From NCBI GenBank assembly GCA_016932095.1, contig JAFGDN010000055.1, forward strand, positions 1 to 35,904: a DNA stretch of 35,904 nt, given 5' to 3'. Positions within the stretch are counted from its first letter, which is position 1, and each line of letters begins with the position of its first letter. This DNA is from Sedimentisphaerales bacterium (lineage in GTDB: Bacteria > Planctomycetota > Phycisphaerae > Sedimentisphaerales > Anaerobacaceae). A program made the position numbers and the translations under genes. This document shows positions 4,233 through 29,664 of the stretch, one piece after another. Below the pieces are notes generated by a model that did not search any database, was not told where the DNA came from, and saw nothing but the letters and a program-made list of their open reading frames with translations.

Positions 4233-4274
4233 GAAATGCAGAATATAGAACATTGAACACAGAATGCAGAACAC
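4233..4274. repeat. Word-repeat arm (AATGCAGAA/AACATTGAACAC type)
   Basis: AAATGCAGAATATAGAACA followed by TTGAACACAGAATGCAGAACAC is built from variations of one short word (nnnAGAA, GAACA). It resembles one arm of the quasi-palindromic elements elsewhere in the window, but I see no matching inverted arm nearby. It may be a half copy. Confidence 0.5.
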
Positions 4275-10251: not shown

Positions 10252-10301
10252 CAGACCCAGGACGCAAGACCTAAAATGTAAAATCATTGATGTTTGAACG
10301 G

Positions 10302-10437
10302 TAAATTAAAAATCAAAATGCAAGAATCAAAACCACAAATCAAAATTAGAAATGATTCGGCAGACGGGTTGTCAGCAACGGCATATTTGCATTTTGCATT
10401 GTCATTTTGATGTTTAATTTTTGATATTTGTTTTTTT
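10302..10437. repeat. Quasi-palindromic word-repeat element (TCAAAATGCA words)
   Basis: The left arm (10302-10354) is built of A-rich words (AAATTAAAAATCAAAATGCA, then AATCAAAACC, AAATCAAAATTAG). The right arm (10382-10437) is T-rich and reads as the reverse complement of the same vocabulary (TTTGCATTTTGCATTG, TTTTGATGTTTAATTTTTG). The central ~27 bases (CAGACGGGTTGTCAGCAACG region) are unrelated unique sequence. The whole could fold into a long imperfect hairpin. No ORF or transposase is associated. Confidence 0.7.
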
Positions 10438-10480
10438 ATCGGGCGAGAGTAATGAATGCAGAAAGCAGAAGGCGGTTTTT

Positions 10481-21070: not shown

Positions 21071-21191
21071 GCCACAGAGAATATCTTTATCTTTTTTGCC
21101 ACAGGGGTCACAGAGGACACAGAAATTATAGCCAAAAAGCACTTATGAATTTCATTTTATTTCTCTGTGGTCTTTGTGTGCTCTGTGGCTA
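21071..21191. repeat. Quasi-palindromic word-repeat element (CACAGAGGACACAGA words)
   Basis: Left arm words (GCCACAGAGAATATC at 21071, then GCCACAGGGGTCACAGAGGA from 21098) are answered by an inverted right arm at ~21154-21190 (TTTCTCTGTGGTCTTTGTGT, then GCTCTGTGGCT). An unrelated spacer of ~23 bases lies between. The architecture is the same as 10302-10437, 23487-23667 and 29592-29664, but the vocabulary differs. Confidence 0.7.
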
Positions 21192-21276
21192 TATAAAAAA
21201 CCTCTGCGGCAAACACAACCACGATGATTCAATAACTAATAATTTTACCCATCCCTCTCTAAAATGCAAATAAAAA

Positions 21277-23486: not shown

Positions 23487-23667
23487 AAATCCCAAACATC
23501 AAATCCAAAATCCTGAGCAAATTACAACCACCAAAAAACCTAATTTCAAACGACTGTCGCCTTATGGTCTGGCTATTGGATTATTTTAGGATTTGGAATT
23601 TGTTTGAGATTTGTCTTTTGGGATTTGGAAGTTGTTTACCGTTTGGGATTTGTTATTTGTGGTTTTT
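23487..23667. repeat. Quasi-palindromic word-repeat element (AAATCCCAAAC words) upstream of rodA
   Basis: The left arm (23487-~23550) has words AAATCCCAAACATCAAATCC and AAAATCC..AATTACAACC. The right arm (~23581-23667) has GGATTTGGAATTTG, GAGATTTG, GGGATTTGGAAG and GGGATTTGTTATTTGTGG, the reverse complement of the same word set. Between them is unrelated sequence (CTGTCGCCTTATGGTCTGG). It ends 18 bp before the rodA ATG. Confidence 0.75.
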
Positions 23668-29255: not shown

Positions 29256-29413
29256 ACCCCTTCCTATAAATTTAATGAACGCAACATAAAATTTTCCGTA
29301 AAATTTATTTTGTTTTAAGACGCTGGTTTTGTAACATCTTGTCTTTGCAGAACAGTTATTCCAGTAACGAGCAATGAGCGTCAGGTGTCAGGTTTTTTGG
29401 AAAGGATGATGTA

Positions 29414-29591: not shown

Positions 29592-29664
29592 CAGATGACA
29601 GAGGACCGAGAACAGAAGACGGAAAATAGGCGACTGTCATCCGTCATTGGTCTTCTGTCATCCG
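29592..29664. repeat. Quasi-palindromic word-repeat element (GATGACAGAGGACC words)
   Basis: Left arm GATGACAGAGGACCGA (29594-29609) and the complement of 29647-29662 (GATGACAGAAGACCAA) agree at 14 of 16 bases. Further words (AACAGAAGACGGA; TGTCATCCGTCATTGG) extend both arms. A short unique centre separates them. It sits between the ferredoxin gene and tRNA-Glu. Confidence 0.75.

Follow-up and report, generated by a model that had tools for sequence, protein, structure and literature searches.

Four stretches of the window (the whole of contig C83, 35,904 nucleotides of a planctomycete genome) read as long quasi-palindromes, E1 to E4, and they raise the question of what could produce one shape from four unrelated sequences. 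The initial annotation had described arms made of a short degenerate word and its reverse complement, with a different word at each locus and no transposase, and had favoured a generating process, such as template switching plus slippage, over the copying of a single MITE. We found all four quasi-palindromes at the positions reported, each in intergenic DNA (Table 1; the boundary of E2 is corrected here, with GCCACAGAG ... CTCTGCGGC as its outer pair). The inverted similarity of the halves of E1-E4 was compared with 1000 dinucleotide shuffles, giving p = 0.002, 0.001, 0.001 and 0.001, respectively, and p = 0.003, 0.009, 0.001 and 0.002 when each half was shuffled separately. In this comparison, the arms exceed shuffled sequence in all four elements (p ≤ 0.009). 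An independent repeat search recovered the arms of E1, E3 and E4. The arms of all four are terminal inverted repeats with long-stem potential; predicted RNA folding was strong for E4 (z = -6.7) and E2 (z = -5.9), modest for E3 (z = -2.3) and weak for E1 (z = -1.2).

Table 1 Word-repeat features of the window.
Feature	Position	Description
E1 quasi-palindrome	10302..10437	words AAATCAAAATG; arms ~10303-10345 and 10387-10437
212-bp insertion	10266..10477	between prfA and the next gene; holds E1 and one-armed arrays
One-armed CAGAA-type array adjoining E1	10452..10475	same words in L052
E2 quasi-palindrome	21071..21210	words CACAGAGGA; outer GCCACAGAG / CTCTGCGGC; 26 related places in the genome
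E3 quasi-palindrome	23487..23667	words AAATCCCAAAC / GTTTGGGATTT; upstream of ftsW
E4 quasi-palindrome	29592..29664	words GATGACAGAGGAC; between a ferredoxin gene and tRNA-Glu
One-armed CAGAA-type array	4233..4274	words as in L052
Claimed one-armed GTCAGGT array	29380..29397	two units only

The common architecture, the many unrelated vocabularies and the lack of a transposase were thus borne out for the four loci. The loci do not resolve to a single consensus, and we rejected the one-MITE explanation because the vocabularies are unrelated. The one-armed versions that had also been claimed fared unevenly: the array at 4233-4274 is real, while that at 29380-29397 amounts to just two units. The 212-bp insertion around E1 also contains a one-armed AGAATGCAGAAAGCAGAA-type array. 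A family distinct from the word palindromes is seen at 796-975 of the window, where an 89-bp tandem duplication contains GATTCCTCGACTTCGCTCGGAATGACA; a 123-bp palindrome (TGTCATTGCGAGGAGCGCAGCGACGAAGCAATCTC...) at L018:10962-11084 is possibly related to it.

The hairpins of the window are not four oddities: in the spacers of 0.73 Mb of this genome (2.95 Mb in 94 contigs, 96% complete), a shuffle-controlled scan counted about 104 word-repeat arrays along with 47 word palindromes. Their vocabularies include CAGAACA, AAATCCT, AAGACCC, GACGGAA and CAGCGAA, as well as CACGAAGG, CAGGTTAT and AGAGCACA; a literature search with word sequences gave primer-like matches only. The vocabulary of E2 is itself a multi-copy family with 26 dispersed occurrences, which include both complete palindromes and lone left or right arms. 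Therefore, we regard every recurring vocabulary as a separate dispersed family.

Could such hairpins be functional, maintained by selection as terminators, RNase III sites or regulator-binding sites? Roles of this kind were proposed for the paired tandem repeats of Geobacter metallireducens (PMC2700814), and they would suit the strong folding of E2 and E4 and the location of E4 just 5' of tRNA-Glu, a site at which another genus also has a hairpin. However, palindromes were not enriched between convergent genes (3/42, vs 17% of spacer length), the arrays had no orientation bias relative to genes (purine strand 23 vs 21), and three congeners (G001, G002 and G003) lack the 212-bp E1 insertion in their prfA spacer. 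The arms do not resemble intrinsic terminators either, being long and AT-rich or mixed. We consider it improbable that hairpin function explains these elements.

The lead to their origin was one word array that runs straight into an ORF of the S23p family (PF05635, TIGR02436). Seven genes for this 23S rRNA intervening-sequence protein are present in the genome, vs none in 14 named control genomes; word arrays adjoin all seven, and inverted arrays bracket six of them. There is no S23p gene in the window, which is why this link was absent from the initial annotation. Several vocabularies are common to S23p loci and gene-less arrays: ATCAGGTT (S23p locus L080, gene-less L024/L039), CAGCG words (S23p locus L078, gene-less L042) and GACAGAGGAC words (S23p locus L079, window element E4). 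Gene-less arrays were also closer to the S23p arms of their own genome than to random S23p sets (0/500; two-letter words and L083 removed). Only E4 has a clear word match, and the vocabularies of E1-E3 are without an S23p partner in the genome; thus, these three are assigned by shared architecture. At one S23p locus (L081:1481-1990), the coding sequence seems to hold AATCTGA-type words, as its flanks do.

We know of no function for S23p so far. The protein is a four-helix bundle with solved homologues 2gsc and 2rld, and 2gsc has been described as a ring of five such bundles (PMC4990558, PMC10053308). The Avd proteins of DGRs form a homologous four-helix bundle family (PMC10053308), and NF033474 matches were obtained here. 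Avd, however, works with a reverse transcriptase, and mobilisation of the reverse-transcriptase/DGR type was rejected here since RVT_1 was not matched in the 96%-complete genome. Phage carriage of S23p was likewise rejected, as one query gave 0 matches in 50,697 phage records.

Is the association between S23p and inverted arms particular to this genome? PF05635 is present in 58 of 119 Planctomycetota genomes, and inverted arms (z > 3) were detected around 67% of 33 S23p loci from this genome and its phylum. They were also detected around 62% of 77 loci from our multi-phylum sample (80 S23p loci), whose ~20 phyla include Bacteroidota, Patescibacteria groups, Desulfobacterota, Nitrospirota, Acidobacteriota and Planctomycetota, with phyla of uncultured genomes named as in the submitters' titles. 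As controls, inverted arms were scored at 4/140 genes of this genome having spacers on both sides, at 2/22 neighbour genes of the multi-phylum loci and at 1/69 same-sized genes. S23p genes are therefore bracketed by inverted word arrays in 62-67% of cases, vs 3-9% of control genes, by a crude detector (by eye, some unscored loci have arms and others none). The association extends across ~20 phyla. Among 56 periodic S23p flanks, the word period was 7 in 35 and 8 in 13, with one periodic flank in the shuffles, and the 5' arm was purine-rich in 54 of the 80 elements and pyrimidine-rich in 9. A divergent PF05635 subfamily is mostly without arms (2/26 armed); it comprises L114-L143 and reaches 13-25 copies per genome in G061, G073 and G138. 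Between genomes, the number of S23p genes and the density of arrays correlate only loosely in these small samples, G039 having eight PF05635 matches and few arrays, and G004 having no match and some arrays.

The words, moreover, co-vary with the protein. The share of S23p locus pairs with common vocabulary rose with protein identity, from ~2% of pairs below 50% to 39% at 60-70% and 62% above 70%, and a Mantel test of S23p identity against vocabulary gave r = 0.26 (p = 0.001). Across phyla, the 36 pairs with at least 60% identity had a mean word similarity of 0.20, vs 0.07 when permuted (0/500). In a loose and weakly supported S23p group that mixes Desulfobacterota, Nitrospirota, KSB1, Lentisphaerota, Planctomycetota and Bacteroidota, several members share GGCACAGAGGCACAAAGG-type words. 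Either the elements carry their words along, or else the protein constrains the words.

Comparison of sites between relatives revealed insertion. A site on cyanobacterial conjugative plasmids occurs in four states: empty in Nostoc linckia and Tolypothrix; filled by an S23p element with a 5-bp target duplication, GTAAT, in Trichormus and Scytonema, the flanks being ~98% identical; a decayed remnant in Nostoc C052; and a gene-less word palindrome in Brasilonema. At a second Nostoc plasmid site, TTCTA flanks the element on either side, and the empty relatives have a single copy of it. Further cyanobacterial sites gave the duplications TTAG and TAATG/TTATG, and two examined sites were not legible. 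Some cyanobacterial sites thus have a target duplication of ~5 bp; duplications were read at cyanobacterial sites only, and none was legible at E1. Empty sites in relatives, as expected of a MITE, were found in the comparison of E1 with G001-G003, which covers E1 only. In Lacinutrix mariniflava, the sdhA-sdhB spacer measures 455 bp with its S23p element, vs 9-14 bp in the nine congener genomes with a readable junction. Since the empty spacers at the plasmid and Lacinutrix sites are free of palindromes, the arms came in with the gene. The two insert as a unit, and a gene-less form exists at the site of a full element.

These sites bear on a reading in which S23p is a passenger, that is, a cassette that targets pre-existing hairpins, be they palindromes of other origin or 23S helices. 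The IVS does lie in helix 45 of the 23S rRNA (PMC4990558), and the recurrence of S23p at a favoured site, sdhA-sdhB, would also suit such targeting. Nevertheless, the empty spacers lack the palindrome that the cassette would have targeted, and the words track the protein, not the host; we give this reading little chance. In Bacteroidota, sdhA-sdhB accounts for 10 of the 80 loci (L164, L170, L172, L181, L185, L191, L208, L215, L219 and L222), a recurrence that reflects either a hot spot or an old insertion with many clean losses. On cyanobacterial plasmids, S23p elements were also seen within CRISPR operons (L307, L309 and L316), between cas6 and cas4 or between cas10/cmr2 and cmr3. One operon of different Nostoc plasmids has two S23p vocabularies at neighbouring junctions (L331:780-1340), AGTCAGA at one and AAAAGGG at the next.

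The same comparisons address the origin suggested by the initial annotation, namely local slippage and template switching, in which no mobile element takes part: a short word of the host expands, and the opposite strand receives a copy of it. Between the Trichormus and Scytonema plasmids (L314 vs L321; 98% identical), one and the same arm differs by two 7-bp units, meaning that arms change in steps of entire words. AGACCCAAGACGC, a word pair that belongs to a different array (L027), is already present in the prfA spacer of the congeners, and the orthologous fdx-tRNA-Glu spacer of G012, which belongs to another genus, has a palindrome with words other than those of E4; by eye, this palindrome (L074:2921-3040; cf. 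window 29592-29664) resembles the arms of G012's own S23p (L250). All three observations could be accommodated by local generation. In contrast, one-step insertions with target duplication beside near-identical empty sites, dispersed multi-copy vocabularies and the co-variation of words with S23p across phyla are not what a purely mutational process would leave. Slippage keeps a part, with arms differing by whole words and the heptamer number of Coxiella varying by strain (PMC4990558), whereas a purely template-switching origin is not supported. Local generation is already weakened as a rival and, in our judgement, unlikely; pure template switching and slippage are not needed to explain the elements.

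A transposase-driven alternative is that a Y1 (HUH) transposase moves these elements, which would make them REPIN/RAYT-like. The logic is alike, as REPINs are non-autonomous inverted pairs that co-evolve with a partner gene (PMC3116915), and the genome does hold one Y1_Tnp gene (C56:19001). The RAYT partner, though, is a Y1 transposase acting on a fixed REP unit, whereas here the partner is S23p and the arms are degenerate word arrays in which, by eye, we saw neither the GTAG/CGTC tag of REP units nor any other common tag. A single Y1 gene also faces dozens of vocabularies. Finally, Y1 transposition makes no target duplication, and for this reason it does not fit the duplications at cyanobacterial sites. 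We consider this alternative very improbable, more so than any other weighed here.

What, then, do the S23p elements resemble? In Coxiella burnetii, the IVS of the 23S rRNA has an S23p ORF between terminal inverted repeats, with a 28-bp terminal stem, and the heptamers GACAGAT/GACAGAA lie directly 5' of S23p in a number that varies by strain (PMC4990558). The likeness extends to the ORF, the inverted repeats and the heptamers 5' of the ORF, and the window elements carry the short-word, mostly 7-nt tandem repeats of such arms. The Coxiella element, however, lies within the 23S rRNA and is excised by RNase III, whereas those described here are intergenic, dispersed, of many vocabularies and, in the window, gene-less; the tRNA was the sole Rfam match there and the window holds no rRNA, so none of its elements sits in a 23S rRNA helix. 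A similar stem, with 7-nt repeats on both strands and alternative heptamers (TDNGATT, NNTGAGT), is the cyanobacterial STRR/P6b stem of the Nostoc trnL intron (PMC4476775), and heptamer arrays flank S23p on Nostoc-group plasmids. The 'global regulator sites' of Geobacter metallireducens are tandem 7-8-nt repeats in opposite-strand pairs at variable distance, read there as IHF/HU binding sites without a mobile element (PMC2700814). Xanthomonas has GGGAATC heptamer arrays in ~70 convergent inverted pairs per genome; these are like our arrays but were studied as G-quadruplexes (PMC4692102). We found no literature joining heptamer/STRR arrays or paired repeats with S23p, in a search that covered papers outside subscription.

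Taken together, these results make it probable that the quasi-palindromes of the window belong to a family of small mobile elements of the S23p/IVS type, as MITE-like members that lack the gene. The full-length form has a single S23p gene, flanked on one side by an array of a degenerate 7-9-nt word and on the other by the reverse-complement array; in our model, the window's own four would have lost the gene and kept the arms. S23p is a putative recogniser of the word arrays, with each subunit of its pentameric ring possibly binding a single word. None of the elements examined encodes a recombinase, and no autonomous transposase-encoding partner with the same ends was found, the partners encoding S23p and no recognised transposase; we therefore assume that the DNA would be moved by a recombinase supplied in trans. 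Slippage would then alter the number of words, and single arms may be leftovers of decay, giving the one-armed versions.

The IVS came to light more than 25 years ago, and several reports, each with its own explanation, have dealt with heptamer arrays in the spacers of bacteria. One family of mobile elements that includes gene-less derivatives would unite these arrays with the IVS, would give S23p a testable role, the recognition of words, and would account for a visible share of the intergenic repeat DNA of environmental bacteria. We describe this family as widespread and little-noticed. More tentatively, and with somewhat less than even confidence in the whole, we propose that S23p and its word arrays may together form a selfish system of two parts, analogous to RAYT/REPIN, in which a pentameric ring protein with putative recognition of element-specific 7-8-nt words would move horizontally between phyla and mobilise swarms of gene-less word palindromes. 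If true, such a system would explain together the 23S rRNA IVS, the STRR heptamers, the Geobacter 'regulator sites' and the Xanthomonas pairs.
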